DNA from: Siphonodentalium dalli | Lineage: Eukaryota; Mollusca; Scaphopoda; Gadilida; Siphonodentaliidae | Length of the DNA: 64,000 bases | Direction of reading: 5' to 3' | NCBI GenBank assembly: GCA_032622095.1 | Contig: CP136062.1 | Span: 11,373,710-11,437,709, forward strand | Shown here: in pieces, positions 13,821 through 53,990 of the stretch | Layout of the letters: every line of letters starts with the position of its first letter | How positions within the stretch are numbered: the first letter of the stretch is position 1 | The notes under the pieces: generated by a model | What the model was told of the DNA's origin: nothing | Database searches by the model: none | Seen by the model: only the letters and a program-made list of their open reading frames with translations | Translations under genes and position numbers: made by a program

Positions 13821-15056
13821 ATTATACCCCCTTTTAAGAAAAAAGGGGGGTATACTGTTTTGCACCTGTCCGTCCGTCTGTGTGTACCGTACATACGTCC
13901 GTCCTATGTCTGTTCATGTCATAACTTGAACAGAAGTGCTCGGATCTCAATGAAATTAGGTTGGATGTTCACTACTATGAGCACATTAAATGGAGGGTTC
14001 CATCGTTTTGTTCGGATTTTCCATTCTAGAGTTATTCATCTTTGTTTACTAGTATCTTGAAATGTTGGATTTTTGGTCCATCTGGTGTCTGTTCATGTCA
14101 TAACTTGAACAGTAGTGCTCGGATCTCACTGAAATTGTGTAAGGATGTTCACTACTATCAGGGCATTCAATAGAGTGTTCCATCGTTTCGTTCGGATTTT
14201 CCATTCTAGAGTTATTCATCTTTGTTTATCTTGAAATGTTGGATTTTTTGTCCGCCTGGTGTCTGTTCATGTCATAACTTGAACAGTAGTGCTCGGATCT
14301 CAATGAAATTGTGTATGGATGTTCACTACTATCAGGGCAATCAATAGAGTGTTCCATCGTTTTGTTCGGATTTTCCATTCTAGAGTTATTCATCTTTGTT
14401 TATCTGGAAATGTTGGCTTTTTGGTCTGTCTGGTGTCTACATGTATTCATGTCGTAATTTCAATAGTTGTGCTGGGATCTCAATGAAATTGTGTATGGAT
14501 GTTTACAACTATGAGGACATTAAAATGAGGGTTCCATCGTTTTGTTCGGATTTTCCATTCTAGAGTTATACATCTTTGTTCATCTGGAAATAATGGCTTA
14601 TTGGTCCGTCTGGTGTCTGTTCTGTCGTAACTTCAACAGTTGTGCTGGGATCTCAATGGAATTTGGTATGGATGTTCACTGCTATGAGGACATTCAACAG
14701 GGGGTTCCATTGTTCTGTTCCGCTTTTCCATTATAGAGTTATTCATCTTTGTTTATCAGGAAATGTTGGCTGTTTGGTCCATCCGATGTCTGTTCAGCTC
14801 ATAACTTGAACAGTAATGTTCGGATCTCAATGAAATTTTGTATGGATGTTCACCAATATGAGGACATATACATGTAGTGGCACATTCAAATGTTTGTTTC
14901 GGTTTTTTGTTCCATAGTTATTCATCTTTGTTTATATGAAAATGCTGATTTCTGGGTCCATATGTCTGAGTATAGCCATGATAAGTTATAGATGTGCCCA
15001 CACTAGGCGGTATGCCACGAGGGGGTATGCACCGGACGACAGTCCATCTCTTGTTA
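13821..15056 (+). repeat. Family A element, copy 1: 5' hairpin, six monomers of about 175 bp, 3' hairpin
   Basis: It begins with a palindrome TATACCCCCTTTT / AAAAGGGGGGTATA (13823-13854), then a CTGTCCGTCCGTCTGTGTGT tract, then about six tandem monomers starting near 13912, 14091, 14265, 14441, 14617 and 14789. Monomer landmarks are GTCATAACTTGAACAGTAGT, CGGATCTCAATGAAATT, GTTCCATCG and TTCTAGAGTTATTCATCTTT. It ends GCACCGGACGACAGTCCATC, containing a small hairpin GGAC-GACA-GTCC just before the terminus. Non-coding. The layout resembles HINE/pearl-type elements. Confidence 0.82.
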
Positions 15057-15212
15057 TTTCAATACTATCAAATTATTCCTTATCTATCGGTATTTTAGAA
15101 TAAGGTCGTTTCGTGTTGGGTTAGTTTTCATTTGCGGCCCAACCACATATACCCCACGGCCTCGGGCCCATCAGGCATTTTTCTGGTCTCCCGATCGGCC
15201 AGTCCGCCTCTG

Positions 15213-18200
15213 AGCTTATTATCCCAACTACCCGGTAGGGTCAGTACTGGTCTACTAAATGATAAAAAAATTTACTTTAACTTGTAGGTTGCCTTCTTAA
15301 CATGTATACGGTACTTGAGAAGTTGAGAGACCATTGTTGCATTTGCAGGTATTGCTCTTATGCACATGCCCATCTTCAGAACTTCTATTATTTCCCATAT
15401 TTCGATAAATATGATGCAATACGATACATGTATTATTTGAAATGTACATGTATAGCGGTACACTGGATTCACGATGAATCTTTACTGGCCGACAGTACAG
15501 TAGATCTGTTATTGATCAATCTGATGAATATCCTAATATGTAATTAGCCTCTTGGCACATTAATTATTTTTATAAACCCTTACTGCTACATGTACATGTG
15601 TATGTGTGCAAATATTGTATTGTTCCGAATTTAGTCAAGCGATCAGATGGCATCGTTCAAATAGTTCAGTGTGTGAGTGACTGACATTACATGAAAATAT
15701 AAAGGCAAAATGCATTTAATATATTTTATTCCAATATGTATACGGCACAGTAACATGACGACTTATGTTATTGTGACTGACAATACACAAACCTTTCGAA
15801 TATACATGGTAACTGGATTTCAAATTTAATTTATAGAAGTTAATATAAATGTATATATGCATCGCTGATTTGTCTTACATACATGTACATGTTACACTGA
15901 CTTATTACCTCTCTTGATAAAATTACTATTTCTGCACAAACATAACAAAATATTTGGTGTCACGCTTGTACTGTAACAGTCTGCTGATCTCAGTGATCTG
16001 TTTTCAAACAAAGACAATTTTTTTTTTCAATTGTATCCAATGAACCTTATTTGTTCATGTTATCAAGGGCGGATCTTGCGCTTAATATTGCTAACATACA
16101 ACATGTACATGCATATATATACATAGCGGTTTACTTAATCTGAGTCAAGTACAGTTATTTCAACTGGATGAATGCATATCCATGCAAGGGTGAAAACAAC
16201 ATCCTGCGATGTGTGCGCGCCCCACGTGGACTCTTTTCGCCATGCAGAGCACAATAATTCTGTTGACATTTTGTTTCTGGGCGTCAAGGTTTAGGCACCC
16301 AAAGTTTTTCTATTAACATAGATATAGCAATTCTAACTGTGGTGTCAAATTTGTCAGCACAAATGCATGTTTTGAAGCCATTATTGAATTTAAATATGTA
16401 TCCAATGCAAATGGTCCACCCGGTGGCCCCGGGCCCATTTATTGCACAAATTGAACTAGCTGTAAGCATGTACATGTAGCTGCATAATTATATTAGCTGA
16501 CCAATTACATGTAGTAGTATTTTGAACATGTACATGTACATTTGTACCGGTAATCCGCAGTGTTGACACTGCCATATATTTTGAGGACATACTAGTATCA
16601 CTGGTGTGAAGCCACAGGACATTTAATCTGCATGCACGACTCTCCATATAGCATACCGTATGGCCATGTTTATAGAGTACACCTGTGGGATGTACCCAGT
16701 CCTGGTGCAGCATTGGGTAGATTTTTATCGCATTCCCTACCAATTACATGTATTTTCATTGTAAATTGGAAATTGCATTGGAAATTGATATGCGAATACA
16801 TTTAAAATATAGTCTTGATTGACAGCTCTCTTGTTTCAATAGACGTCTGATAACAGCTGCGGCCATCTTGATATAAGATTAAGCTGAATAAGCTCCACCA
16901 CTCGACCCGCGGTTTGTTAGGATGACATTAACTAACACGAACACTGACATGCGTGTTGATAGCACGTTTTTCGTAAACAATGGAACTAAATTGAAAATCA
17001 AGATTAACTCTACTTGAAAACGAAACGATTCAAGGCTAAATCATAAAATTTAACCTCATTGAGTAAAAGCACAAGAAGAGAGAGTCTGCGCGCTCCGTAT
17101 ATCAAGATAAATCGACCGAATTGATAGATGCACGATATTGGGCAATAAACTGATTGATCACAAAATCTACATACATGTATACGTGTACATGTAATGCTAG
17201 GCCTATATACATGTATATATATATCTGTTGATTCGGTACGGTATTTAACTTACAAGTCATATTTATAGCTCTGTTAGTTGGGTTGTATGTGCACCATTGG
17301 AAGGTATTTAATATCCTAAATATGTTAATGTTTTTGGGGTTGATGTTATTTCACAGCGTCTGTATCGTCCAGATGATCCATTCGATTATTGTCGTCACAG
17401 TCTTGAAAAATGCATATTTCTATTGAGACGTATTTGCTCTTATTGCATACATGTAAATTATCAAATAAAAACAAATATACATTGGGTCATAAAATTAATT
17501 ATGAGCATTGAGTTGAGCAGAGCCTGGTTGAAATGCTACGGTGTGGCGATTCATACTCGTCTGCGAGCTACTGTCAGTACTGATGCCATATATGCATGGT
17601 TCTATTAATGGTTTGTATTTTGATGAGGTAAACTGCTCGTAACCTCCATTGTAGACAATTTCACACCAGGTTCTATTCATAAACAAATAAAAAAATTGGC
17701 ATAAAGAACTGTATTAAACAAATTTCTGCGCGAATGACTGGATCATTGACGACTCGGGCAGACATATACTGGGTAATCCTTTTGACAGCGTGTTCTGGGC
17801 CACAAACAATAGATATAACAAAACTTCAAAAAATGATATCTGGTCACACTGAGCGTTGATGGGTAGGTTCCTCGACTCGAATAAATTATTTGTTAAACCC
17901 GAAGCCAAAGAAATAGTAATTTATGACGGTCTGATCAGATTGAGTACCTACCTTTAATGTTACACATATCTGCTGCACACATAACCACAAATAGCAGCAT
18001 TGGGTGCGTTTTCAACGCTGAGATAACAGCTTTAAACGCCAATAACCTTACATGTATTTTTAGCACCCACTGGTGAGTGTTATTGACAATATATTGTGCA
18101 TCTTAAAGGCATACATGTAATCTGGTTTTATTGTTTAATAGCATTACTATTGGCAGTTAATAATGTGATTGTGTTTAGTAGACTTTTTGGAATTTTGTTG

Positions 18201-18385
18201 GTTGCATGGGAAGACAACTTTGGTTTTAAATTTTTTAAAAACTTGAAAGCTCTATCAGTCTATGAGAACATAATAATTGTTCATAACACTTTTAGAACTG
18301 TAGGTCTAGTTTGTTTTATTTATATATTAATGGAAAGCATTTTCGACATTGATTTCAATTGATTACAAATGTAAATATAAATATT
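15213..18385. other. Long non-coding stretch without a supported gene
   Basis: AT-rich DNA with many ACATGTACATGT words. Short ORFs here have no recognisable domain. An 89-codon frame at 18096-18362 is hydrophobic but AT-driven and lacks clear splice sites. A degraded copy of the TTAA element lies at 17735-17957. Confidence 0.5.
17735..17957 (-). mobile_element. Partial copy of the TTAA-flanked MITE (family G)
   Basis: The right edge GGTCTGATCAGATTGAGTACCTACCTTTAA is inverted relative to the left end of the complete element at 43518 and finishes at TTAA (17954-17957). The body (GAGGTTCCTCGACTCGAAT-like, CACTGAGCGTTGATGGG, GAAATAGTAATTTATG) matches the reverse of 43540-43740. The other end is missing. 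Confidence 0.6.
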
Positions 18386-18389
18386 AAAG

Positions 18390-18706
18390 GGGCACACCAG
18401 GTTTGATATATTTTTCTTGTACTCTACATGAGATAAAAAGTTTATGTGTACCGGTACCTACATGTATACCATAGTATGGTACACTTAGTGTCAATGTTTG
18501 GCCACTCGTCGTTCGTTCTTCCATCTGTACCGGGTACGTCTGTCTGTCCCTCCGTAGACACTTTAGGCATAATGCGATAACTCTAACATTTTCTATTTGA
18601 GCGAAACCAAATTTTGTACAGTATATATATAGGTTTCACATCCCAAAATACAGTTCGAGTTCGAATATGGGTTTGATCCAAGATTTTTTTTACAGAGTTA
18701 TTGCCC
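18390..18706 (+). repeat. Family H repeat, left part (interrupted by family B copy 2)
   Basis: Contains CCATAGTATGGTACACTTAG, a CGTTCGTTCTTCCATCTGTA and GTCTGTCTGTCCCTCCG tract, then GAGCGAAACCAAATTTTGTA and CAGTTCGAGTTCGAATATGG. The last block recurs on the far side of the family B array at 19989-20060. Such tracts are widespread in invertebrate repeats. Confidence 0.6.
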
Positions 18707-19923
18707 TTTTTAGCTCAACTTTACTTTGTAATGTTTGAGCTATTGCCATGGCTTGGTATCCGTCGTGCGTGTGTATGCGTGATTCGTCAACAAATTCCTT
18801 TAGCACGGGCTACAGTTCGTATCTTTGGTCCGATTATTATGAAATTTGTCATGGATGTTGACATTGACATGTAGATGGGAACGAGTCATTTTGGGGTCAT
18901 TCGGAAAAAAAACATGGCCGCCAGCGGCCATCTTGGATTTAACAATTCAATCCATTAGCACGAGCTACAGGCCGTACTGTTCGTCTTATTGTCATGAAAT
19001 TTGTTTTGGATGTTAATATTGACATGTAGATGGGAACGAGTAATTTTGGGGTCATTCGGCCAAAAAACATGGCCGCCGGCAGCCATCTTAGATTTTACTC
19101 TTTGTATGACTAAATCCTTTGACACGGGCTACAGGTCGAACCTTTGGTCGGATCATCATAAAATTTGTCATGGATGTTAACAATGACATGTAGATGGAAA
19201 CGAGTCATTTTTGGGTCATTCGGCCAAAAAACATGACCGCCAGCTACCATCTTGGAGTTTACTCCAAGTATGACTAAATCCTTTAGCACGGGCTACAGGT
19301 CGTACCTTTTGTCTGATCATCATAAAAATTGTCATGGTTGTTGAAATTGGAATGTAGATGGGAACGAGTCATTTTGGGGTCATTAGGACAAAAAACATGG
19401 CTGCCAGCGGCCATCTTGGATTTAATAATTCAATCCATTAGCACGGGCTACAGGTCGTACTGTTCATCTGATCATCATGACATTTGTCGTGGGTGTTAAT
19501 ATTGACTTGTAGATGGGAACGAGTTATTTTGGGGTCATTCGGCCAAAAAATATGGCCACCGGCAGCCATCTTAGATTTTACTCTTTGTATGACTAAATCC
19601 TTTAGCATGGGCTACAGGTCGTACCTTTAGTCTGATCATCATAAAATTCGGCAATAAAACATGGCTGCAAGCGGCCATTTTGGATTCTACTCTTTGCATG
19701 ACTAAAGCTATCAAATGTTTTTGAATTGTTGGAAAACATAGCCGCCAGCAACCATCTTAGATTTTACTTGTATATACATGTATATATATATATATTTCTC
19801 TTCATGTTGATAAACTAGTATTAGACATTCAACTTTCCCCATTCCTAATAACTCCATCGACAGTAACACATTGAATTATTCCCTTTCCAAGGTGAGCTAC
19901 ATTGTCATTGACACTTTCATTAC
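18707..19923 (+). repeat. Family B array, copy 2
   Basis: Starts TTTTTAGCTCAACTTTACTT (palindromic with TAATGTTTGAGCT), then about seven monomers with TTTAGCACGGGCTACAG, GATGGGAACGAGTCATTTTG and GCCGCCAGCGGCCATCTTGG. Ends GGTGAGCTACATTGTCATTG. The last monomers are degraded and include a TATATA run at about 19772-19792. Confidence 0.9.
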
Positions 19924-21810
19924 TTAGAATTCACGCATGCTGCCAAAACTCACACATTTTTTTTATCTGATTGACAACAAATTTGATATGTAAGATTGTC
20001 AGCCCAAAATACAGATCAAGTTCGAATATGGGTTTGATCCGATTTATTTTAAGGGAGTTATGACCCCTTTTTTTTAATTCCAAATTTTAATTTATGTTTA
20101 TGTTGAATTTCCTCGCTCAATTTAACAGGCAAAAAATATTAAAAAACTTTTATAATAATAACAAAATTATTTAATTAAAAAAAAAATGTCATTGACACTA
20201 ATTTGTTTAATTGTATATCATTAATTAGGTATGATGTCCTGTTTTGAAAATAGGCAGATTTTATTGCCATAGTTGCATGTAATATAATGATATCAATATC
20301 CAATATCCAGACTATATGAGTGTACCTTTAATAGATGTCATTCCAAGCGAAATCTGTTATTAATTGAGTGATGACATATGTTACAAAGCTCTAGGGGGTT
20401 GTTGTATGAAGGTAAAGATACACAACCTGCTGGCTGGATAATTATTTATCCTATCTCTCAAATTGATTAATGGCTAAACCATTGGATCTGACAGTGAGAG
20501 GTCCTTGTGTGAATAGGGACAGAGTTATGAGATTTAAAACGACTCACCCCCACCCCAAATACTTTAACCCCTTATTAAGACAAATTATATAATATGAGCT
20601 TTTGATTTTATGTTTAAGTACTGATATATGTATTACTGTGATCATATCTTTGACCAATTATCAGTTATAGCTAATCGCTATCGCCAAGGTATGGGTTAAA
20701 CATCTGCCGATCGTGATCGGCCTCTCGTTTTATATTTGATTCAAATAGGGGCAGAAATATGAGATTTACCCATATGTACCGTATATATGTGAACTGTTAA
20801 CCTTGTGGGTTGATTTATGAGCTGGGTTTAGAACCACATAATTGGTGGGAGGGTTTCTGGGATTGACCCCCCTAACTTTGGTATTCAGTGGAAAATATGT
20901 TGTAACTAGACCAACAAATGGCCACATTTAGAATATTTCTAACTTTATGAACTTGAAGTACCAGTTGTAAAATTATTCAATCATGTGAGATTGAAGCCAC
21001 ATGGACATCCATGTTGGTCGGTTGATAGAGGTTTATCGTCGTTTCAGCTGCTATTCCATATCACAACATCAGTTTTACTGGTTGAATGACCACACTAAAA
21101 GTTAATTGCCCCACCCCACCAAACGGGCACCCATGTTAGTCAGCTTTGGTTCGTTAATTAAGCTAGCTTATGTTCATATTAGTACTTTTTTTTCATTTTA
21201 TTATTTTTGCTTGGAATTTAAATGAACATTACATCAGTGATATATAAATCAAATTGTTTATCAAATATTTGCAGGACCCAAACATCTGGTTTTAACAAGC
21301 TACCAGTATCTGACCGAAAACATACATGTACATGTATGCGTACATGTTGAATGCCATACTCAAATCACCATGTCCACCCATATACCTGTCACCTGGGATG
21401 GTGGATTTGAAGAGAACATGCGCAAAACATTGTGACGTTTCTAGATATTTATTATTTAGGCTCATGTATTATAGTTGAATTTGACAGTGCCGAATGCACT
21501 ATTTCCCTGTCACTATGGAAACTTTGGGATTGTGCAATCCAGTGCACAGCCAAAAAAATGTCCTGTTCATAATTGACACTTCTCTTCTACGACATTACTT
21601 TAAAATTGCATGAAATTCTATATTGGCTGAAGAGTTAAAGGGTCACTCTCAACAAGTTTTATTTATAGAGTGATGAGTAAAGAACTAAAGATGTACCTGG
21701 GAATATAAACAATGTACACCCCCAACAAGGTGATGCGTAATGATGCACCAGGTATCTATATAGCGTATCTATGTGATGCACATGGGGTATTTATTATCTA
21801 CATCTACCAT
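19924..21810. other. Mostly single-copy non-coding DNA
   Basis: The resumed family H block lies at 19975-20060 (TCAAGTTCGAATATGGGTTT, AGGGAGTTATGACCCC). Beyond that no array, TIR element or coding-like frame is evident. This is one of the least repetitive intervals of the window. Confidence 0.45.
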
Positions 21811-21817
21811 TAGATAG

Positions 21818-22894: not shown

Positions 22895-23900
22895 TTACTT
22901 ATGAAAGTGCCAATGACACTGTAGCTCAACTTGGAAAGGGAATAATATCATGTGTTACAGTCAATGGAGTGATTAGGAATGTGGAAAGTTGAAAGGCCTA
23001 GTTATGCAAAGATTAAAATCCAAGATGGCCACCGGCAGCCATGTTTTTTTTGCCAAATGACCCCAAAAAGACTCGTTCCCATTTACATGTCATTGTTAAC
23101 ATCCATCACAAATTTCATGATGATCCGACAAAAGATATGACTTGTAGCCCTTGCCAAAGGATTTAGTCATGCAAAGAGTAAAATCCAAGATAGCTGCTGG
23201 CGGCCATAATTTTTGGCCGAACGACTCCAAAATTACTCGTTCACATCTACATGTCAATATTAAAATCCATGACAAATTTAATGATGATCCGACAAAAGAT
23301 AAGACCTGTAGCCCGTGCTAATGGATTGAATTTTGAAATCCAAGATGGCCACTGGCAGCCATGTTGTTTGTCCGAATGACACCAAAATGACTCGTTCCCA
23401 TCTACCGGGTACATGTCAATGTCAACAGCCATGACAAATCTCATACTGATCTGACCAAAGGTACGACCTGTATCCTGTGTCAAAGGATTTAGTCATGCAA
23501 AGAGTAAAATCCAAGATGGCTGCTGGCGGCCATGTTTTTTGGCCGAACGACCCCAAAATGACTCGTTCCCAACTAAATGTCATTGCTAACATTCATGACA
23601 TTTGTAATGAAGATCCGACCAAAGCTATGACCTGTAGCCCACGCCAAAGGATTTAGTCATGTACATGTAAAGAGTAAAATCCAAGATGGCTGCTGGCGGC
23701 CATTTATTTTGGCCGAAAGACCCCAAAATCATTCGTTCCCATCTACATGTCAATGTCAACATTCATGACAAATTTCATAAAGATTAGACAAAGGGTACGA
23801 CCTGTAGCCCGTGCCAAAGGATATTGTTGACGTACACACGCACATACGGACGCAAACCCATGACAATAGCTCAAACTTACAAAGTAAGTTGAGCAAAAAA
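22895..23900 (-). repeat. Family B array, copy 3 (inverted)
   Basis: Reads on the minus strand. Its 3' end is at the left (GAAAGTGCCAATGACACTGT, AGCTCAACTTGG) and its 5' end at the right (CCATGACAATAGCTC, AAACTTACAAAGTAAGTTGA). About six monomers with AAATCCAAGATGGC, ACTCGTTCCCATCTACATGT and CCTGTAGCCCGTGCC. It is the only complete family B array on this strand. Confidence 0.9.
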
Positions 23901-28579: not shown

Positions 28580-29822
28580 AATTATACCCCCTTTAAAAAT
28601 GGGTTAAACTGTTTTGCACCTATACGTCCGTACATGCGTCTGTGTGACGACCGTATGTACGACCGTCCGATGTTTGTTCATGTCATAACTTGAACAGTAG
28701 TTCTCCGATCTCAATGAAATTAGGTATGGATGTTCACTACAATGGGGACATTAAATAGAGGGTTTCATCGTTTTGTTCCGATTTTCCATTCTAGAGTTAT
28801 TCATCTTTGTTTATCTGGAAATGTTGGCTTTTGCATGGTATGCCTGGTGACAGTTCATGTTGTAACTTCAACAGTTTTGATGGGATCTCAATGAAATTTG
28901 GTGTGGATGTTCACTACGACGAGGACATTAAATAGAGGGTTCCATAGTTTTGTTCCGATTTTCCATTCTAGAGTTATTCATCTTTGTTTATCTGGAAATG
29001 TTGGCTTTTGCATGGTATGCCTGGTGTCAGTTCATGTTGTATCTTCAACAGTTTTGATGGGATCTCAATGAAATTTGGTATGGATGTTCACAGCTATGAG
29101 GACATTAAATAGAGGGTTTCATCGTTTTGTTCGGAGTTTCCATTCTAGAGTTATTCATTTTTGATTATCTGGAAATGTTGGATTTTTGGTCCGTCTGGTG
29201 TCTGTGCTTGTCATAACTTGAACAGTAGTGATCGGATCTCAATGAAATTTTTTATGGATGTTCACTACTGTGAGGGCAGATGCAATAGAGGGGTCCATCA
29301 TTTTTTTTCGGATTTTCCATTCTAGAGTTATTCATCTTTGTTTATCAGGAAATGTTGGCTTTTTGGTATGTATGCATGGTGTCTGTTCATGTCGTAACTT
29401 CAACAGTTGCACCGGGATCTCAATGAAATTTGGTATGGATGTTCACTGCTATGAAGACATTAAAAAGAATCTTCCATCGTTTTGTTCGGATTTTCAATTC
29501 TAGAGTTATACATCTTCGATTATCTGGAAATGTTGGATTTTTGATCCGTCTGGTGTCTGTTCGTGTCATAAATTGAACAATAATGCTCGGATCTCAATGA
29601 AATTTGGTATGGATGTTCACCATTATGAGGACATTTAATGGCACATTCAACTATTTGTCTTGTTTTGTTTTTTTGTTCTATAGTTTTCATCTTTGTTTAT
29701 ATGAAAATGCTGATTTTTGGGTCCATCTGTCTGGGTATAGCAGTCATATTTTATAGATATACCCACACTAGGCGGTATGTAACAAGGGAGTATGCACCGG
29801 ACGACAGTCCATCTCTTGTTTT
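28580..29822 (+). repeat. Family A element, copy 2
   Basis: Starts ATTATACCCCCTTTAAAAAT, then a GTCCGTACATGCGTCTGTG tract. Six monomers begin near 28675, 28852, 29030, 29205, 29382 and 29556. Ends GCACCGGACGACAGTCCATC. The 5' hairpin is partly decayed relative to copy 1. Monomers are 174-179 bp. Copies 1 and 2 have the same monomer number and the same degenerate last unit. Confidence 0.82.
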
Positions 29823-33883: not shown

Positions 33884-36800
33884 TTTTTAGCTCAACTTTA
33901 CTTTGTAAAGTTTGAGCTATTGCCATGGCTTTGTCGTCCGTCGTCTGTGTGTGTGTGTGTGTGAGCGTATGTGTGTGTGCGTGTGTGACGCGTCAACAAT
34001 TTCCTTTAGCACGGGCTACAGGTCGTACTTTTTGTCGGATCATTATGAAATTTGTCATACCTGTTGACATTGACATGTAGATGGGAACGAATTATTTTGG
34101 GTTCATTCGGGAAAAAACATGGCCGCCAGTGGCCATCTTGGATTTCATTAATCAATCCATTAGCACGGGCTACAGGTCATACTGTTCGTCTGATCATCAT
34201 GACATTTGTCATGGATGTTAATAACGAGTAATTTTGGGATTGTTCGGTCAAAAAACATGGCCACCGGCAGCCATCTTAGATTTTACTCTTTGCATGACTA
34301 AATTCTTTGGCACGGCCTACATGTCGTACCTTTGGCCGGATCATCATAAAATGTGTCATGGATGTTAACAATGTCATGTAGATGGGAACGAGTCTTCTTG
34401 GGTTCATTAGGCAATAAAACATGGCCGCCAGCAGCCATTTTGGATTTTACTCTTTGTATGACTAAATCATTTAGCACGGGCTACAGGTCGTACCTTTAGT
34501 CTGATCGTCACGAAATTTGTCATGGCTGTTTAAATTGGAATGTAGATGGGAACGAGTAATTTTTGGGTCATTCGGCCAAAAATCATGGCCGCTGGCAGCC
34601 ATCTTGGATTTTACTCTGTGCATGACTGAATCATTTAGCACGGGCTACAGGTCGTAGCTTTTGGCTGATGATCATGAAATTTGTCATGGCTGTTTAAATT
34701 GGAATGTAGATGGAAACGATTCATTTTGGGGTAATTCGGAGAAACAACATGGCGGTCAGTGGCCATCTTGGATTTCAAAATTCAATCCATTAGCACGGGC
34801 TACAGGTCGTACCTTTAGTCTGATCATCATGAAATTTGTCAAGAATGTTAATATTGATATGTAGATGGGAACGAGTAATTTTGGGGTCATTCGGCCGAAA
34901 AAACATGGCCGTATATTTCGTCGGATTATCATAAAATGTGTCGTGGATGTTAACAATGACATGTAGATGGGAACGACTAATTTTGGGGTCATTCGGCCAG
35001 AAAACATGGCCGCCGGCAGCCATCTTAGATTTACTCTTTGCATAACTAAATTCTTTGGCACGGCCTAAAGGTCGTACCTTTTGTTGGATTATCATAAAAT
35101 GTGTCGTGGATGTTAACAATGACATGTAGATGGGAACGAGTAATTTTGGGGTGATTCGGCCAAAAAACATGGCCGCCAGCAGCCATTTTGGATTTTACTA
35201 TTTGTATGACAAAATCCTTTAGCACGGGTTACAAGGTCGTACATTTAGTCTGATCATCACGCAATTTGTCATGGCTGTTGAAATTGGAATGTAGATGGGA
35301 ACGAGTCATTTTGGTGTCATTCGGACAAACAACATGGCCACCAGCGGTCATCTTGGATTTCAAAATTCAATCCATTAGCACGGGCTACAGGTCGTACCTT
35401 TGGTCTGATCATCATGAAATTTATCAAGAATGTTAACATTGACATGTAGATGGGAACGAGTAATATTGGGGTCATTCGGCCGAAAAAACATGGCCGCCGC
35501 CAGCCATCTTAGATTTACTCTTTGCATGACTAAATTCTTTGGCACGGCCTACAGGTCGTACCTTTGGTCGGATCATCTTAAAATGTGTCATGGATGTTAA
35601 CAATGACATGTAAAAAAAACATGGCCGCCAGCAGCCATTTTGGATTTTACTCTTTGTATGACTAAATCCTTTAGCACGGGCTACAGGTCGTACATTTAGT
35701 CTGATCATCATGAAATTTGTCACGGCTGTTTACATTGGAAAGTACATGGGAACAAGTAATTTTGACGTCAATCGGACAAAAATCATGGCCGCTGGCAGCC
35801 ATCTTAGAGTTTACTCTTTGCATGACTAAATCCTTTAGCACGGGCTACAGGTTGTAGCTCTAGTCTGATCATCATGAAATTTGTCAAGGCTGTTTATATT
35901 GGAATGTAGATGGGAACGAGTCATTTTGGGGTCATTCGGCCGAAAAACATGGCTGCCGGCAGCCATCTTAAATTTACTCTTTGCATGACTAAATTATTTG
36001 GCACGGCCTACATGTCGTTCCCTTGGTCGGATCATCATAAAATGTGTCACAGCTGTTGACATTGAAATGTAGATGGGAACGAGTCATTTTGGGTTCATTC
36101 GGGACAAAAACATGGCCGCCAGTGGCCATCTTGGATTTCAATATTCAATCCATTATTACGGGCTTCAGGTCGTACTGTTCGTCTGATCATCATAAAATTG
36201 ATATTAATATTGACATGTAGATGGGAACGAGTAAATTTGGGGTTGTTCGGCCAAACAAAATGGCCTCCGGCAGCCATCTTAGATTTTACTCTTTGCATGA
36301 CTAAATTCTTTGGCACGGCCTAAAGGTCGTACCTTTGGTCGGATCATCATAAAGTGTGCCGTGGATGTAACAATGACATGTAGATGGGAACGAGTCATTT
36401 TGGGGTATTCGGCAGAACAATATGACCGCCAGCATCCATTTTGGATTTTACTCTATGTATGACTAAATATTTTAGCACTGGCTACATGTCGTACCTTTAG
36501 TCTGATCATCATGAAATTTGTCACGGCTGTTGAAATCGGAATGTAGATGGGAACGATTCATTTTGGGGTCATTCGGACAAACAACATGGCCGCCAGCGGC
36601 CATCTTGGATTTCAAACTGCAATCCATTAGCACGGGCTACAGGTCGTACCTTTAGTCTGATCATCATGAAATTTGTCATGAATATTAATATTGACATGTA
36701 GATGGGAACGAGTTATTTTGGGTTCATTCGGCCAAATAACATGGCCGCCGGCAGCCATCTTGGATTTCAATATTCAATCCATTAGCACGGGCTACAGGTC

Positions 36801-37671
36801 GTACTGTTCGTCTAATCATCATGAAATTTGTCATGGATATTAATATTGACATGTACATGGGAACGAGTCATTTTGGGGTTGTTCGGCCAAAAAACATGGC
36901 CACCGGCATCCATCTTAGATTTTACTCTTTGTATGACTAAATTATTTGGCACGGCCTACAGGTCGTACCTTTGGTCGACTCATCATAAAATGTGTCATGG
37001 ATGTTGAAATTGGAATGTAGGAATGTAGATGAGAACGAGTCGTTTTGGGGTTTTTTGGACGCACAACGTGGCCGCCAGCGGCCATCTTGGATTTTAAAAT
37101 TCAATTAATTAGCACGGGCTACAGGTCGTACCTTTGGTCTGATCATTATGAAATTTGTCATGAATGTTAACATTGACATGTAGATGAGAACGAGTAATTT
37201 TGGGGTCATTCGGCCCGAAAACATGGCCGCCGGCAGCCATCTTAGATTTACTCTTTGCATAACTAAATTCTTTGGCACGGCCTACAGGTCGTATCTTTCG
37301 TCGGATTATCATAAAATGTGTCGTGGGTGTTAACAATGACATGTAGATGGGAACGAGTAATTTTGGGGTCATTCGGCCTAAAAACATGGCCGCCAGCAGC
37401 CATTATGGAGTTTACTATTTGTATGACTAAATCTTTTAGCACGGGCTACAGGTCGTATCTTTAGTCTGATCATCGTGCAATTTGTCATGGCTGTTGAAAT
37501 TGGAATGTAGATGGGAACGAGTCATTTTGGTGTCATTCGGACAAACAACATGGCCACCAGCGGTAATCTTGGATTTCAAAATTCAATTCTAAATCTTTCC
37601 ATTCATTGCTCATCACACAAATTTAACTTCTTCCCAAAGTTGAGCTACAGTGTCATTGACACTATCATTTT
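33884..37671 (+). repeat. Family B array, copy 4: the longest (about 22 monomers)
   Basis: Begins TTTTTAGCTCAACTTTACTT / GTAAAGTTTGAGCTATTGCC (an almost perfect hairpin), then a (GT)n tract at 33945-33990, then a 3.6-kb tandem array. Ends AAGTTGAGCTACAGTGTCAT with the hairpin GTGTCATTGACAC. Some monomers are internally deleted (near 34900 and 35610). Every monomer repeats GATGGGAACGAGT and GCCATCTT. ORFs on either strand here are shadows of the repeat. Confidence 0.93.
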
Positions 37672-40229: not shown

Positions 40230-41342
40230 AAGCCACCCATTACCACATAGTCACTCCATATATACATAGACAAAACACAAATGACAATATAGTCACCCAC
40301 TGTATATACGGACACCTGACCCATGACCATACATCTATACTTGGTTATACCCGTACACACCACAAATGGCCATACATCCATGCGTCACAACGCAGACACA
40401 CCGGGTATACACCTAGACATGACCCATGACCATATAGTCACTCATTGTATACATACTGACCATGCATATATGTGCACCTCATACATGGCCATATGGTCAC
40501 TCGATGTATACACATACCCCACACCCACGACCATACATCCCCACTTATGTATACTCGTACACCCTACACATGACCATACCTTCACGAGTCACCATGCAGG
40601 AACACCAGGTATATTCCTACACATAACACATACATGCACATTCACCACATCCAGGATCATAGTCACACCTTGTATACATATACATGTTCACCTCACCATT
40701 GGCCATACAGTCACTACCTGTATACCTATTCACCACAGCATGGTCATATAGCCACTTGATATATACATACAGCCCATCCATGATCATAGAGTCACTCCAG
40801 GTATACATATACACCTCACCAATGGCCATTCAGCCCTTCAAGACATACCAATACCCACACACATGAACACGCATACCTTCCTTGCTCGCATATGCACCTC
40901 ACACATGGCAATTCAGCAACTCCCTGTATACTCATACACACACGCCTTACATTGTCATACTGCTACACCCTATACACCAACCATTGGTAATACATCCACG
41001 ACATATATAAATATACATCCCACCCGTTACCACAATGGCACTTCCTACGTATACCCACTCGCTCGCCAATGACCATCCAGCTTACTCCAAATATGCATAT
41101 ACACTTCAATCATGACCGTACAGTCATTCCATGTACACATATACACATTACCCATAACCACAAAATTACTCCCTAGTTATCCACACCCCCCATCTATGAT
41201 CATACAGACAGAACGCGTATATATATACACACACCTGTCACAATACAGCTACACCCGTACTGGGTACACACAACCTTACAACATACAATCACTCCATGTA
41301 ATGTATACCACATGACCATACGGCCACTCCATGTATATACCT
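40230..41342 (-). repeat. Family E minisatellite, right palindrome arm
   Basis: The same units in the opposite orientation (CCATACAGTCACTCC, TGTATACATATACACC, CACCAATGGCCAT). Unit by unit the stretch 40230-40400 mirrors 39930-40120, including AGGTGTAC/GTCCGTATATACAGTGGGTGAC-like stretches and TATGGTCATGGGTCAGGTGT. The arms are therefore true inverted copies, not just similar arrays. The spacer at the centre is about 90 bp (40141-40229). The array resumes at 42563-42700 after element K. Confidence 0.8.
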
Positions 41343-41482
41343 ATAATTATCCCCTCTGTAGAATTGTAAGCCTTCTTAGGCACCATTGTTCTTCTAGGGC
41401 CATACCACGCCGTATCCCGGTGTTCTTGTTTGATATATGTTAACTAAACAGGAAACACTTATTTCGTATTACCACGCAAAAA

Positions 41483-42066
41483 TTGTCGTCGCTATATAGA
41501 GAAGACATATTTTACACGGGTCATAACAATCTCGTATGCCCCGTGTAAAAGTGATATTACCCCGCAAAAATTGTCGTCGCTATATAGAGAAGACAGATTT
41601 TACAAGGTCATAACAATCTCGTATGCCCCGTATAAAACTTATATTACCCCGAAAAAATTGTCGTCGCTATATAGAGAAGACAGATTTTACAAGGTCATAA
41701 CAATCTCGTATGCCCCGTGTAAAACTTATATTACCCCGAAAAAAATGTCGTCGCTATATAGAGAAGACAGATTTTACAAGGTCATAACAATCTCGTATGC
41801 CCCGTGTAAAACTGATATTACCCGGCAAAAATTGTCGTCGCTATATAGAGAAGACATATTTTACAAGGTCATAACAATCTCGTATGCCCCGTGTAAAACT
41901 GATATTACCCCGCAAAAATTGTCGTCGCTATATAGAGAAGACAGATTTTACACGGGTCATAACAACCTCGTATGCCCCGTGTAAAACTTATATTACCCCG
42001 CAAAAATTGTCGTCGCTATATAGAGAAGACAGATTTTACAAGGTCATAACAATCTCGTATGCCCCT
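41483..42066 (+). repeat. Seven tandem 87-88-bp monomers of element K
   Basis: Monomers start TTGTCGTCGCTATATAGAGA at 41483, 41571, 41658, 41745 (first base A), 41832, 41919 and 42007. 87 bp equals 29 codons, so the array is fortuitously open for 137 codons. The peptide repeat (SSLYREDRFYKVITISYAPC) is most likely not translated, because two monomers are 88 bp and break the frame. Confidence 0.92.
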
Positions 42067-44130: not shown

Positions 44131-44134
44131 TTAA

Positions 44135-45664: not shown

Positions 45665-46429
45665 AAGTAAAAAAAAATACTTTTATGTCCACATATATAC
45701 AAAGCACAATGTTGAGGTGAACCCGGAATAAATTTATAAAAAAGCGGTTTTGGTGTCAATTCTGTAAATATACAAATCTTTGACCACAAACGTTCCCTAA
45801 CTGCTAAATATCACCAAACATCCCAAATTTCCGCTCGTTTCAGGGAAGACAACATTTTTGAGGTAAAACAAAATCAGAAAAACATTTAAGAAAATGAAAA
45901 TTGAAATGTTAATCCGGGAATCAGGTCGGTCAACGTCCACACCGCCAGGATTAAAATTCATTCATTTTTTGCATTGTAAGGATGTCTGCTAAAACTATTT
46001 CGACGTTAACATGCATGTACCTGGCAATATGGCGGCCATTTCCGGGAATATACCCTACCCACTACATAAATATACAACAAAAACCCATTGTTCTTGTTTC
46101 ATAGCATATGCCTGTCATTTCATGCATAATTTGACTTAAAAAAACCAAAATGGAGGACAAAATGGCCACCGGAATTAACAAAAATAGCGTTTTACGGTAA
46201 CTTTCACCATAGGTGCCAGTTGCGCCACCATACATGATGTCTAATCCTAATCCGGTAATAGTAAATCATAACCCAAGTTTTCAAAAATGACGACGAAAAT
46301 GGCAATCGGAAGTCAACAATTGAAGAGCTTTTTCTAGCTTTTTAACTTTTTAAACTAAATATTCAAATATTAAATAAATATATAGCCAATAAGTAGTGGT
46401 ATATGTGCCAGCATACAAGTTTCCAAAGC
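45665..46429. other. Non-coding interval
   Basis: AT-rich. 46020-46330 holds ATGGCGGCCATTTCCGG and AAAATGGCCACCGGAATT words, weakly shared with 33290-33480. No gene is seen. Confidence 0.45.
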
Positions 46430-47340: not shown

Positions 47341-47987
47341 GGTGAGTTCAATTCCCTTCTGGGCATTAAAACAATAATTGATTTTTCTTCGAAATTGTGT
47401 TTTAAATTTATTTTAATTTGATGGACACTGAAGGGCCAAATCCTAGTGATGTGTCTCATAATTATCATAATATCGATTTAGCATGGTATATTTTTTTTCT
47501 TAAAAAAAAAATGGAAAATATCTGTTAAAATGTAGCGAAATTTGCCCAATTTGACCACTTCCGGACACCATTTTGGATTTAGTAATGACAATAATAACTA
47601 GAGGTCAGATTCCATGGAATCAGATATACTTCCATGGTATCCCATCCCATCCCATGTGAGTGTTATGCGTATACATCTATGTTTGTTCCTCTTCGTGCGA
47701 ATGCATATTGGTGCTTTGTGGTCAGATGGCACCGTTCGAGTCAGGGATGCACGGAAGGAAAGAGGGGCACCAAAATTTATAAACTAAGTTTAGCGCCGAT
47801 GGACCATCTAGATGGCACCAAACGGTCTACTAGGGGTAACTTTTTACTAGAAAGATAATGGTGTGGGTTAGAATTTTCTAAAATTATGAAGCACTGTTTG
47901 ATTTTAGATTCAAAATCGTGGCTTATCCTTGGATACTTCCACTTGCAATGTAATCGCAGTTGTGTGTGTAGTTGTCGCATTGTAAAT
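47341..47987. other. Non-coding interval
   Basis: No array or recognisable gene. The short (CCCAT)n run CCCATCCCATCCCATG is at 47641-47656. A 74-codon frame from 47634 has no recognised domain. Confidence 0.4.
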
Positions 47988-48135
47988 GTAGAAGGCCGAT
48001 GACTTCTCTGCTCGAGAGGTCTAGATTTCTTGGTCACGGTCGTTAGATGTTTTGTGTGATCAACGAAGTTAAGCAACGTCGAACCCGGTTAGTACTTGGC
48101 TGTGTGACTTGGCTTGGGATTCTGGATACTGCCAA
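47988..48135 (+). repeat. 5S rRNA-derived repeat, copy 2
   Basis: 48058-48133 reads GATCAACGAAGTTAAGCAAC, GTCGAACCCGGTTAGTACTT and GGATACTGCC, close to the 3' two thirds of 5S rRNA. The upstream GATGACTTCTCTGCTCGAGA and GGTCTAGATTTCTTGGTCAC are shared with copy 1 (25645-25855). This copy retains the GGTTAGTACTTGG stretch better than copy 1. It lacks the canonical 5S 5' end and a T-run. Confidence 0.72.
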
Positions 48136-48529
48136 CTTTCGGTGCGATTCCCGCACTTCTCTCTCTTGTTCTGTTACATGTGTACATACATGTAAAAATA
48201 GTGGCTGGAAAGATCACAGGGTAGTCAATTACATGCTTACGAATAACCTATAATATCGTCATGTACGACGACCCCGCAATCTACCGGTATCTATCAATAA
48301 ACTATCCATAATTTCATCAGGTCCCGATGCCTCCACTTACGATTGTATCATTGTCGTCTGAACGTTCACTAACGACACAAAATAACTGCAAATTCAGAGA
48401 CCTGTACGGTAATCGACTACTAGTTGACTAGTCGGACCCCTTCTAAGAGCTCCCGTTTCTATGTACGGTACATACAGTATGACGTATAAAATGAGCCATG
48501 TGTCATCGCTGTTTTGAGTACCGGTATCC

Positions 48530-49003
48530 AATAAGTTTGCAAAGTTTGTGTCTTTATGGTGTAACTCATTAGACATGATCGTAGAATTATCTCTCATTTT
48601 GAAAACATAAACCGCTTATATTTCTGCGAGAATCCAAATCTATTATCGTAAATATTCTCGCAATTTACCCTTTATTCTTGTGAACAGTTTGTATGGATTC
48701 TCGCAAAATCAGATGAAATAGATCGGTACTAGTATGTCATTGGGCGCCGTCGTATCTAATCCCATACTGTGCCGACTAGCTGACAATAATAATAAAAACA
48801 AAATTATCTATGCACAAATTGCAAAGCGAATTGCGATACTAAAACTTCTAAAAGCTCTAAATAGTAAATACGTTGATCGAAGCAACTGTGTGTTCAAAAT
48901 TAAGACTCCTAACTTCGCCAAGTCGTGCACACGTCTAGAACAGGCTATGTAGCTCGTTTTGTCTTTTATAGTTGGATGATACAGTAGCCTGATTGAGCTT
49001 CAT
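48530..49003 (+). repeat. Paralogue of the 5600-6807 composite repeat
   Basis: GTTTGTGTCTTTATGGTGTA, CTAAAAGCTCTAAATA, CTAACTTCGCCAAGTCGTGC and GATTGAGCTTCATTTTTA are shared in order with 5600-6807. A family B array follows immediately in both. Confidence 0.75.
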
Positions 49004-49519
49004 TTTTAACTGAACTTTACTTTGTAAAGTTTGAGCTATTACCATGGCTTTGTCGTCCATCGTCTGTGTGTGTGAGGGTGTGTGTGTGCGTGTGTGATGC
49101 GTCAACAATTTCCTTTAGCATGGGCTACAGGTCGTACCTTTGGTCGGATCATTATGAAATTTGTCATAGCTGTTGACATGTAGATGGAAACGAGTCATTT
49201 TGGGTTCATTCGGGAAAAAAACATGACCGCCAGTGGCCATCTTGGATTTCAATCCATTAGCACGGGCTACAGGTCGTACTGTTTTTCTGATCATCATGAA
49301 ATTTGTCATGAATGTTAATATTGACATGTTTATGGGAACGACTAATTTTGGGGTTGTTCGGCCAAAAAACATGGCCACCGGCAGCCATCTTAGATTTTAC
49401 TCTTTGCATGACTAAATCCCTTGGCACACCCTACAGATCACATATCCCTCCATTTACTGTTAACCATTAAATTATTCCCCAACCTAAGTTGAGCTAAAGT
49501 GTCATTGACACTTTCATTA
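49004..49519 (+). repeat. Family B, copy 5 (short)
   Basis: TTTTTAACTGAACTTTACTT start, (GT)n tract, about two monomers, then AAGTTGAGCTAAAGTGTCAT at the end. It retains both ends but few monomers, so internal copy number is what varies in the family. Confidence 0.88.
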
Positions 49520-49828
49520 TTAGATTTTGTTGTCTTATGTCGCAGTGATATCACAGGTTAGGGGGAATGTTTTGTCCATTAAAAATACCCCCTGCAACGC
49601 GGTTGTGGAGAAAGGGGTTTATACTCCAATCAGCTTGTCTGTGGACATAAATTTGTCTGGAGTTTTTCTCAGCTGTTTTCTGATCATTTTCTGTGGAAGT
49701 TGGCACAGACATTCAACAACTGCGATTATGACATATGTCAGTCTTTATTTGGTGGCGTTACATCCCCATTTTTCGACTTATAAAATCTTTGAAAATTGTA
49801 TAATTTTGTCCGAGCTTGTATTCCTACA
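49520..49828 (+). other. Unique spacer between two family B arrays
   Basis: A frame of about 100 codons (49527-49835) with hydrophobic segments is open but has no ATG context, no splice sites I would trust and runs into the family B end. Not called as a gene. Confidence 0.35.
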
Positions 49829-51297
49829 TTTTTAGCTCAACTTTACTTTGTAAAGTTTGAGCTATTGCCATGGCTTGATATCCGTCGTCCGTGTGTGTGA
49901 GCGTGACTCGTCAACAATTTCCTTTAGCACGGGCTACAGTTCGTACCTTTGGTCAGATCATTATGAAATTTGTCATGAATGTTGAAATTGACATGTGGAT
50001 GGGAACGAGTCATTTTGGGGTCATTCAGCCAAAAAACATGGCCGCTGGCAACCATCTTGGATTTCAAAATTAAATCCATTGGCGCGGGCTACAAGTCGTA
50101 CTGTTAGTCTGATCATCATGAAATTTGTTATGGATGTTAATATTGACATGTAGATGGGAACTAGTCATCTTGGGGTCGTTCGGCCAAAAAACATGGCCGC
50201 CAGCAGCCATCTTGGATTTTACTCTTTGCATGACTAAATCCTTTGGCACGGGCTACATGTCGTACCTTTGGTCCGATCATTATGAGATTTGTAATATCTG
50301 TTGACATTGACATCTAGATAAGAGTAATTTTGGGGTCATTCGGCAAAATAACATGGCCGCCAGCGGCCATCTTGAATTTTAAATTTCAATCCATTAGCAC
50401 GGGCTACAGGTCGTACTGTTCGTCTGATCATCATAAAATGTGTCATCGATGTTAACAATGACATGTAGATGGGAACGAGTCATTTTGGGGTCGTTGGGCC
50501 CAAAAACATGGCCGGCGGCAGCCATATTGGATTTTACTCTTTGCATGAATAAATCATTTGGCGCGGGCTACAGGTCCTACCTTTGGTCGGATCATTATGA
50601 AATATGTCACAGCTGTTGACATTAATAAGTAGATGGGAACGAGTCATTTTGGGGCCATTCGGCAAAAAAACATGGCCGCCAGTGGCCATCTTGGATTTAA
50701 AAATTTAATCCATTGACACGGGTTACAGGTCATACTGTTCTTCTGATTATCATGAAATTTGTCGTGGGTGTTAATATTGACATGTAGATGGGAACGAGTC
50801 ATTTTGGGGTCTTTTGGCTAAAAAACATGTCCGCCAGCAGCCAACTTGGATTTTACTCTTTGCATGACTAAATCATTTGGCACGGGCTACAGGTCGTAGC
50901 TTTGGTCGGATCATCATGAAATTAGTAATGGATGTTAACAATGACATGTAGATCGGAACGAGTCATTTTGGGGTCATTTAGCCAAAAAACATGGCCGCCA
51001 GCAGCCATCTTGAAATTTACTCTTTACATGACTAAATTCTTTGACACAGGCTACAGGTCATATGATCTTTTGTCGGATCATCATGAAATTTGTGATGGAT
51101 GTTAATGACATGTAGATGGGAATTAGTCATTTTGTGGTCATTCAGCAAAAAAATATGGCTGCCAGCGTCCATCTTGGATTTCAATCTTTGCATAACTAGG
51201 ACTTTCAACTTTCCACATTCCTAATCACTCCATTGACATAACACATGAAATTATTCCCTTTCCAAGTTAAGCTACAGTGTCATTGTCACTTTTATTA
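49829..51297 (+). repeat. Family B array, copy 6
   Basis: TTTTTAGCTCAACTTTACTT / GTAAAGTTTGAGCTATTGCC at the start, about eight monomers, and AAGTTAAGCTACAGTGTCAT at the end. It is immediately followed by CCATACCATAGTATGATAAA, the beginning of a family H-like sequence. Confidence 0.9.
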
Positions 51298-51359
51298 TGT
51301 TTAGCCATACCATAGTATGATAAAGATAGTGACCACTCATCGTCTGTCTGTGTGTCCAT

Positions 51360-53658
51360 GGACATTCGTCCGGGCTGTTTCCCCCGTGCTTTCGGCGATT
51401 TGCGCGATTTAACCTTGAATTGTCCATTTTGAAGGTCAAGGTCAGGTGGGGTCAGTGGGTCACGATTTGACCCGTCCAAAACACTGCCTGGACAAAAGTA
51501 CCCGACAAAAGTACCCGTCGAAATCCATCCGGTTTTACCCGATTTGACCTCGAATTGATAATTTTGAAGGTCGATGTCAGGTGGGGTCACGATTTTACCC
51601 GTCCAAAAACACTGCCCGGACAAAACTACCCGACAAAAGTACCCGTCGAAATACATCCGGTTTTACCCGATTTGATCTTGAAATGATCATTTTGAAGGTC
51701 AAGGTCAGATTTGACCCGTCAAAAACACTCATTGGACAAAAGTAACCCTATGTAACAAATTTTGTGGAAATCCCATAAAAATTCGCGATTTGACCTTTAA
51801 TTGACCCGATTTAAAGGTCACGTCTCACTGGCAAATGAATAGGCTTATGAGACACTAATTTTCATCGAAATCACGTGATATTCGGGCGTTTGACCTTGAA
51901 CAGATCCGATTTCAAGGTCAAGGTCACATCGAACGGGTAAATTAATAGGCCTGTGCCACTTCCCGGCCGCAAGTATCCCCACATACCAAGTTTCATCGAA
52001 ATCCCGTTATATTCAGGCGTTTGATATTGAAATAACCCGATTTCAAGGTCAATGTCACGTCGCACGGGTAAAGTAATACGCCTATGACACTCCCCGGCCG
52101 AAGGCACCCCCACATACCAAGTTTCATCGAAATCCCGTGATATTCAGGCGTTTGACCTTAAAATTACCCGATTTCAAGGTCGAGGTCACGTCGAACGGAA
52201 AAATTAATAGGCGTATGTCACTTCCCGGCCGAAAATATCCCCACATACCAAGTTTCATCGAAATCGGCTAGGCCGTTTTCGAGTTCATTGATTACACACA
52301 GACAGATCTTTCAAAATATATAATAGACTAGAAGGTGACCCGACTTCGTCCGGGCTTTGACCTTGAATTGTCAATTTTAAAGGTCAAGGTCAAGTGGGGT
52401 CACGATTTGACCAGTCCAAAACACTGCCCGGACAAAAGTACCCGACAAAAGTACCCGTCGAAATCCATTCGGTTTTACCCGATTTTATCTTGAAATGATC
52501 ATTTTGAAGGTCAATGTCAGGTCGGGGTTACGATTTGACCCGTCCAAAACACTCATTGGACAACAGTAACCCTATGTATCAAATTTTTTGGAAATCCCAT
52601 CAAAATTCACGATTTGACCTTTAATTGACCCGATTTAAAGGTCACGTCGCACTGGCAAATGAATAGGCTTATGAGATTCCCCATACGAAAGTATCCCTAG
52701 ACAGTAATTTTCATCGTAATCACGTGATATTCTGGCGTTTGACATTGAAAAGACCCGATTTCAAGGTCAAGGTCACATCGCACGGGTAAATTAATAGGCC
52801 TGTGCCACTTCCCGTCCGAAAGTACTCCCACATACCAAGTTTCCTCGAAATCCCGTTATATTCAGGAGTTTGACCTTGAAATGACCCGATTTCAAGGTCA
52901 ATGTCACGTCGCACGGGCAAATTAATAGGCCTATGCCACTTCCCGGCAGAAAATACCCCCACATACTAAGTTTCATCGAAATCGGCTCGGCCGTTTTCGA
53001 GTCCATCGCCAACAGACACACACACACACACAGATCTTCCAAAAATATATAATAGACTAGAAGGTGACCCGACTTCGTCCGGCCTTTGACCTTGAATTGT
53101 CCATTTTGAAGGTCAAGTGGGGTCACGATTTGACCAGTTCAAAACACTGCCCGGACAAAAGTACCCGACAAACGTGCCCGTAGAAATCCATCCGGTTTGA
53201 CCTTGAATTGATAATTTTGAAGGTCAAGGTCAGGTCGGTGTCACGATTTGACCCGTCCAAAACACTCAGTGGACAAAAGTAACCCTATGTATAAAATGTC
53301 GTCGAAATCCCATCAAAATTGGCGATTTGACCTTGAATTGACCCGATTTCAAGGTCATGGTCACGTCACACGGGTAAATGGATATGCCTATGAGACTCCC
53401 CATACGAAAGTACCCCCACATACCAACTTTCATCGAAATCCCGTGATATTCGGGCGTTTGACATTGAAATGACTCGATTTCAAGGTCAAGGTCGCGTCGA
53501 ACGGGGAAATTAATAGGCCCATGTCACTCCCCGGCCGAAAATACCCGCACTTACCAAGTTTCATCGAATTCGTCTCGGCCGTTTTCGAGTCCATCGATTA
53601 CAGACAGACACACAGACACACAGACACACATATATTCCAAAAATATATAATAGACTAG
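51360..53658 (+). repeat. Family D tandem repeats, three large units
   Basis: Units begin AAGGTGACCCGACTTCGTCC (52332, 53061; the first unit is truncated on the left) and end ATATATAATAGACTAG (52331, 53060, 53658), preceded by ACAGACAGACACACAG-type tracts. Inside are subrepeats of about 130-140 bp with TTGACCTTGAA, CGATTTCAAGGTCAAGGTCA, AATTAATAGGCCTATG and CATACCAAGTTTCATCGAAA. No ORF is meaningful. The superfamily is not known to me. Confidence 0.85.
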
Positions 53659-53990
53659 CCGATGAGCCCGACGTTGTCCGGGCTATTCAAAAACCAAATT
53701 TCAAGTCGATGGCTCAACCCGTTTCCGATATCTGATCTGCGCACGGGCTCGGCGACTCGGGCTCGGCGACCCGGAAAGATACATTCACATAGCAAATTTC
53801 AAGTCGATAGCTCCACCCGTTTCCGAGATCTCGTCTGCGCATGCGCGAAGCGGGCGCCACACGGGCTCGCCAATACGACATCGTCGACCGCCTGGTCAAA
53901 CTACACACACGTACCAAGTTTCGTCCCGATCGGTCGAGAATCGTAGATTTGGCCCGTATATCTCTCTGCAGATGCTAATAACTTTGAATG
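53659..53990 (+). repeat. Diverged family D-like unit
   Basis: CCGATGAGCCCGACGTTGTC resembles the family D start. It has CAAATTTCAAGTCGATGGCT twice (about 53695 and 53796, second copy with AGCT) and GTACCAAGTTTCGTCCCGAT. It appears to be a related subfamily appended to the tandem block. Confidence 0.6.

Follow-up and report, generated by a model that had tools for sequence, protein, structure and literature searches.

The window analyzed here is a 64,000-nt stretch (C2:11373710-11437709) of a 2.23-Gb animal genome with nine chromosome-size contigs. It contains arrays of families A (13.9-14.9 and 28.7-29.6 kb, units of about 177 bp), B (6.9-8.0, 18.8-19.6, 23.0-23.8 on the minus strand, 34.2-37.6, and 49.1-51.2 kb, units of about 164 bp), and D (51.4-53.6 kb, minus strand, unit of 131 bp). 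Also present are one 87-bp tandem unit that occurs at 41467-42065 and 59644-60330 (95% matches within arrays, opposite strands, about 18 kb apart) and related 42-bp repeats with TATACATATACACC at 40679-40833 and 62170-62789, which adjoin long AT runs.

Helentron-type elements of families A and B

On the plus strand, the first A element (A1, 13820-15055) opens with a 5' hairpin (TATACCCCC/GGGGGGTATA, 13823-13854), in which the subTIR and the inverted repeat (IR) are 92% complementary. This is followed by a GTCY tract (13868-13904), a central array of six core-bearing monomers of about 177 bp with cores from 13944 onward, and a 3' end composed of GGGGGTATG at 15021, the palindrome GGACGACAGTCC (15034-15045), and the terminus CTCTTGTT. 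The same ends were found in other genomic A copies. The second A element (A2, 28580-29819, plus strand) likewise has six monomers, with a palindrome at 29799, a degenerate 5' hairpin, and a degenerate tract (28620-28670). Throughout the window and the other copies, A elements start with TTATACCCCC...GGGGGGTATACTGTTTTGCACC-(GTCC)n and end with GGGGGTATG...GGACGACAGTCC...CTCTTGTT, their insertion-site flanks are T-rich, and each monomer retains the end of the tract (GTCCGTCTGGTGTCTGT).

Five B elements lie on the plus strand. B1 (6808-8340) has a 5' end of the form TTTTTAGCTCGAC...GTTTGAGCTA (6808-6837), a tract at about 6852, an array at 6901-8035, and the 3' sequence CCTAAGTTGAGC at 8321. In B2 (18709-19700) the 5' subTIR and inverted repeat (18711-18742), tract (18756), and array (18789-19648) are followed by a decayed 3' end. 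The largest element, B3 (33886-37665), comprises a subTIR/IR pair (33888-33919), a tract (33933-33990), a first core at 34045, an array that extends to about 37587, and a 3' subTIR (37637) with the palindrome AGTGTCATTGACACT. B4 (49005-49520) is short, with two monomers and a tract at 49055, while B5 (49831-51295) has its tract at 49877, an array at 49923-51198, and the 3' sequence CCAAGTTAAGCTACAGTGTCATTGTCACT. A further B element on the minus strand (22910-23900) has its 5' end at 23865-23898, its array at 22999-23822, and AAGTTGAGCTACAGTGTCATTGGCACT at 22920 as its 3' end. The B order is TTTTTAGCTCAACTTTACTTTGTAAAGTTTGAGCTA, GTCC/GT tract, array, 3' AAGTTGAGCTA, and palindrome AGTGTCATTGACACT, with TAGCTCAACTT/AAGTTTGAGCTA as the 5' subTIR/IR pair.

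A 3' subTIR with a palindrome was found in both A (GGGGGTATG, GGACGACAGTCC) and B (AAGTTGAGCTA, AGTGTCATTGACACT; degenerate in some B copies), and in both families a microsatellite lies between the left end and the central repeats. Judged by the succession of 5' subTIR, IR, GTCY tract, array, 3' subTIR, and palindrome, A and B are organized as HINEs (i.e., non-autonomous Helentrons), an organization also published for oyster HINEs and DINE-1.

Canonical Helitrons of families D, E, and F

Three D elements are arranged head to tail on the minus strand, an arrangement that is frequent for this family. D1 (53057-53654) runs from TCTATTATATATTTTTGG to CTTCTAG followed by T, with its tract at 53600-53630 and first core at 53550, and the same ends were found in genomic copies. 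D2 (52328-53056) has its tract at 53009-53027 and core at 52962, and D3 (51370-52327) has its tract at 52295, its core at 52244, and a degenerate 3' hairpin. The D order is TCTATTATATATTTTTGG, GTCTG tract, core CGATGGACTCGAAAACGGCCGAGCCGATTTCGATGAAACTTGGTATG, hairpin CCCGGACGAAGTCGGG, and CTTCTAG before T. The D monomers (51340-53660) also contain perfect inverted repeats (TTGACCTTGAAAT/ATTTCAAGGTCAA) with TCAAGGTCA words that resemble ERR/NR5A nuclear receptor half-sites.

Adjacent to D1 lies the 3' part of a fifth family, E (53655-53960, minus strand), with its first core CCGATCGGGACGAAACTTGGTACG at 53910, later cores at 53788 and 53690, and the 3' hairpin CCCGGACAACGTCGGG plus CTAG. This fragment is without a left end or tract of its own; complete E copies with the tract occur elsewhere (L083, L084). 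The 5' TC starts of D, E, and F (a family whose elements carry one core and no array) read TCTATTATATATTTT, TCTCATATATATTTT, and TCTATACTATATATTTT, and 3' CTAG was read for D and E, in which a hairpin (CCCGGACGAAGTCGGG, CCCGGACAACGTCGGG, GCCGCCAGTGGCGGGC) lies about 10 nt ahead of the end. Flanks with A before TC and T after CTAG were seen in L025, L034, and L038, and not clearly in L023. By their 5' TC, 3' hairpin, and CTAG before T, D and E are canonical non-autonomous Helitrons. Autonomous relatives with RepHel were found for D (L085 to L074/L055), E (L083 to L079 and L084 to L075), and F (L076/L077). A sequence-only reading had treated the repeat families as otherwise unrelated: A/B and D/E do represent two transposon types, but they are less unrelated than they look, as all of them are rolling-circle elements.

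A tract and core in fixed order

The same reading had proposed that A, B, D, and weakly H share one core preceded by a tract, within monomers that otherwise do not align. A core of roughly 22-37 nt with a GTCY/GT-rich tract ahead of it is indeed common to A, B, and D, and the wording described for it is present. Tract and core share a strand, with the tract first, in A1 (13868), in B (6852, 18756, 33933, 49055, 49877), and, on the minus strand, in D (53600-53630, 53009-53027, 52295). For H the outcome was mixed: an H-type copy at 18532-18621 (plus strand) has both a tract (GTCTGTCTGTCCCTCCG) and a core (GAGCGAAACCAAATTTTGTACAG; core matrix p=0.0075), but the block at 63765-63786 (plus strand) has an H-like core with no proper tract.

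The word ATGAAATTTG occurs 28 times in the window versus 0.59 expected from shuffles, a count that is not independent evidence since most occurrences are copies inside the B and A arrays. Because array copies are non-independent, one consensus per family was taken as the fair unit for between-family alignment, with 1000 dinucleotide shuffles as the control. The A-B alignment (37 nt, score 46; best shuffle 30) and the A-D alignment (22 nt, score 32; top shuffle 24) each exceeded every one of the shuffles (p=0.001). The D-E, D-F, and E-F core alignments beat all or nearly all shuffles. The B-D alignment alone was non-significant (p=0.14), as were several individual Helentron pairs. The best local alignments end at the core stretch, in agreement with the proposal that the remainder of the monomers cannot be aligned.

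The fixed order also held across the 2.23-Gb genome. Specifically, the pattern GTCYGTCYG-N10..40-ATGAAATTTGGT had 948 matches versus 11 for the reversed order (core then tract), a ratio of 86:1, and none for a backwards-read control. Allowing wider spacing between tract and core added 589 matches, and a stricter pattern with GTCCGTCTGTCTG had none genome-wide. The matches include families absent from the window (e.g., ...CTCATATATCTCAACCATGGGTTATCGGATCTCAATGAAATTTGGT and ...TTTCCGGATGATAACTTTAGTAAGTCTGAACTGAATGGAATGAAATTTGGT). Among the matches listed, 56 of 95 non-overlapping cases have a spacer of exactly 34 nt; this peak is real, but it derives from a few high-copy families and does not represent 56 independent events, so no binomial p-value was used.

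Within the window arrays we did not observe extra conservation of the core, which ranked 32nd of 151 (A), 34th of 141 (B), and 44th of 108 (D) among 25-nt windows. Since its conservation does not clearly exceed that of the remaining monomer sequence, recent selection acting on each copy is not apparent, a result expected if the terminal copy is the one that counts or if selection is absent altogether. A scan of viral and prokaryote collections returned no copies of the module sequences, insect copies included, and Rfam returned no structured-RNA family at gathering score. A conserved single-stranded DNA fold of the left end was considered and rejected, as A alone stands out, through its terminal hairpin.

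Autonomous elements elsewhere in the genome

At least 150 matches to Helitron_like_N were found in the genome. The long ORFs at these loci measure about 1600 aa in canonical elements, where they contain PF14214 and PIF1, and 2500-2800 aa in the Helentron type, where the ORF contains OTU, PIF1, and, at the C terminus, a weak match to an endonuclease (E 2.9e-4, short of the Pfam cut-off). Among canonical elements, L076 and L077 begin directly after a neighbor's CTGCTAG and T, with TCTATACTATATATTTTGAG, a GT tract, and AAAACGCGTGTACAGATTGAGATCAAATTTCGTATGTAAG; the L083/L079 and L084/L075 leaders start with TCTCATATATATTTTGAAGACCTCTGTCTG... and carry the core CCGATCGGGACGAAACTTGGTACG; and L085/L074 is a D-type autonomous element. 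In L076, L077, L079, L075, and L074, no CTAGT interrupts the stretch from the left end to the region where RepHel starts. Among Helentrons, L087 has an A-like terminus, GTCCGTCCGGTCTGTC, and then ATCAATTTCCGTCAAACTTGGCACA. Both L087 and L080 combine Helentron ORFs with A-like termini, at an identity too low to name either as the partner of A or B.

A core weight matrix built solely from the A, B, and D cores of the window was scored on seven autonomous Helitron and Helentron leaders outside it (1.6-4.8 kb). In six of the seven, the best site of the entire leader lies 78-116 nt from the 5' terminus, a count in which L076 and L077 form one family pair (F), the two E leaders form another, and D had contributed to the matrix, which leaves F, E, and L087 as independent held-out cases, i.e., two canonical families and a single good Helentron, all autonomous. 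The best sites are at nt 78 and 85 in the F leaders L076 and L077, at nt 94 in both E leaders (L083+L079 and L084+L075), at nt 81 in the D-type L085+L074, and at nt 116 in the Helentron L087. The matrix failed on the Helentron L080 (p=0.2 for the best early site, at nt 88), whose weak core, near its own 5' end at about 1660, was recognized through alignment with L087. A tract and core further upstream of L080 (643-1176) were rejected as its left end, since the first 53 nt are not found in other copies and the stretch has its own 3' end, which identifies it as a nested HINE. No module was found in the leader stretch taken for L071, L072, L073, and L078; that stretch stops short of the true 5' end, or the end is disrupted.

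Reciprocal matrices were significant across the two transposon types for every element tested: the Helentron-core matrix recognized D, E, and F (p=0.0005 each), and the canonical-core matrix recognized A, B, L087, and H (p=0.0005-0.012). The different elements in which the shared wording had been noticed belong to two types of rolling-circle transposon, and a matrix from either type also locates the core of the other type.

A probable left-end module of rolling-circle transposons

Since the best matrix site lies near the 5' terminus of coding elements, we consider it likely that the tract and core form a left-end (i.e., 5' subterminal) module of rolling-circle transposons, later duplicated into arrays, and that the module has persisted through a function at that end. 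It is located 78-157 nt from the 5' terminus in canonical D, E, and F and in Helentron-type A, B, the autonomous L087, and, weakly, L080, coding copies included, with its order and strand fixed in all of them. This common position in autonomous and non-autonomous copies is compatible with both origins first suggested for the shared wording, a common functional module and deep common descent. The module is probably an old working part of rolling-circle transposons and not a property of satellite DNA. It may have been kept because it aids the working of the left end. In its simplest role it would act as a docking or strand-opening site for Rep/helicase, or for a host partner, where rolling-circle replication starts, and the arrays would then multiply the docking site within non-autonomous elements.

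The arrays themselves point to the left end. E arrays open with the left-end core, and their first and later cores are exactly 122 nt apart. In E, the satellite-like central array is a tandem duplication starting with the core, and the same is likely for A, B, and D. Taken together with the A monomers that keep the tract end, this suggests that the arrays grew out of the left end.

Alternatively, the module could have been exchanged between co-resident transposons, through template switching in rolling-circle replication or through recombination, and its sharing would then reflect recent mixing and not old function. Exchange between co-resident elements does occur, as is evident from chained and mosaic elements. 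Head-to-tail chains and nested insertions are frequent (L083, L076, L080), and in L086 (C1:214411525-214415525, 1-560), upstream of a Helentron-type ORF, an A-type terminus and tract are followed directly by B-type monomers. The A-B match (27/33) is also closer than very old descent predicts. Nevertheless, the core has diverged in each family yet is constant in position, order, and strand, the spacer beside it differs between families, and the termini are of two classes; we regard exchange as an unlikely source of the sharing.

Somewhat less likely again is that the core serves as a promoter of the Rep gene, or as a site for a host transcription factor acting on that gene, and is inherited passively by non-autonomous copies. 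The core does lie upstream of the ORF in autonomous copies, but its distance to the region where the ORF starts is 1.6-4 kb, and it has been retained and multiplied in elements without genes. The core might also be a feature of satellite DNA, with a role in phasing nucleosomes or maintaining arrays, that was already present in satellites when transposons captured it. Monomers near nucleosome length fit this explanation, and the capture of "filler DNA" has been discussed for Cg_HINE elements (PMC7492417), but it is improbable given that F elements have one core and no array and that the first core of the D-type L085 and of the E leaders is part of the left end. Independent origin, with the GTCY tract as a hitchhiking microsatellite and AT-rich cores alike by chance, is hardly credible: DINE-1-like elements commonly have GTCY and GT tracts, and the B-D and several Helentron pairs are individually non-significant, but it is largely refuted by the order ratio, by the shuffle tests for A-B, A-D, D-E, D-F, and E-F, and by the position of the best site in the held-out leaders.

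Comparison with known elements

Insect Helitrons and INE-1 probably have closely similar words after a GTCY tract, and the INE-1 core may resemble that of family E. In the Helentron-derived DINE-1 (also INE-1 or mini-me) of Drosophila, a GTCY-rich tract and a conserved core of 33-90 bp both lie in block A, and the core is thought to be functional, with a suggested role in transposition (PMC2374699, PMC4067079). By description, and not by the letters of the core, DINE-1 resembles the elements of the window in its 5' subTIR and IR, GTCY tract, core, species-specific central repeats, and 3' hairpin, and perhaps in its TT insertion, but no link to canonical Helitrons was reported in those papers. 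The Cg_HINE, pearl, DTC84, and MgE elements of bivalves combine a subTIR, an IR, a microsatellite, an array of uniformly oriented 140-180 bp monomers, and a 3' subTIR with a palindrome (PMC7492417, PMC5139131), a layout like that of A and B, again by description and not by motif letters. In the same studies, BIV160/Cg170 monomers have two conserved motifs in common despite their divergence, and Cg_HINEs could not be linked to autonomous Helentrons. Lepidopteran elements have (GTCY)n or (CTGT)n microsatellites (Coates et al. 2011 as cited in PMC4067079; Hel-2, PMC4344730), of which the (CTGT)n tract lies downstream of the 5' subterminal repeat, like the tract of our module, but the available text of these two sources reports no shared core.

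Canonical Helitrons (RepHel; 5' TC, 3' hairpin and CTRR) are like D, E, and F in their TC start and in the Helitron_like_N and PIF1 of autonomous relatives, and like D and E in the 3' hairpin and CTAG before T. In contrast to D, E, and F, a left-end GTCY tract with a conserved core is not among their listed defining features, and usually the short termini alone are regarded as conserved, according to a secondary citation on bat Helitrons. On the one hand, a GTCY tract with a conserved core is already known in DINE-1, as is a tract with an array in oyster HINEs. On the other hand, we found no report in the open literature that canonical Helitrons have this core or that it occurs in autonomous elements of the two types, and the core strings were not found in the text of open papers.

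A broader and more tentative possibility is that one left-end module (GTCY/GT tract plus GATYTYRATGAAAYTTGGTATG-type core, about 80-160 nt in) is common to Helitrons and Helentrons across animals, has survived since the two lineages split, and is the source of many invertebrate "satellite" arrays. Recognition of Helitron and Helentron left ends is poorly understood, and the conserved boxes of bivalve and fly satellites have long been without a reason. If the module is common to both transposon types, it would explain these boxes, provide a sequence signature by which rolling-circle elements that lack annotation could be found, and allow left-end recognition to be tested in a plasmid assay with mutations in about 24 nt.

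Regarding the coding elements themselves, the N-terminal region of the Helitron ORF in L078 (C7:140471177-140473577) and L059 contains many in-frame copies of a 69-bp tandem repeat. Copies of the F left end (L077-type), at least 40 in number and 96-99% identical, occur on all chromosomes, a pattern that suggests Helitrons were active very recently in this genome.
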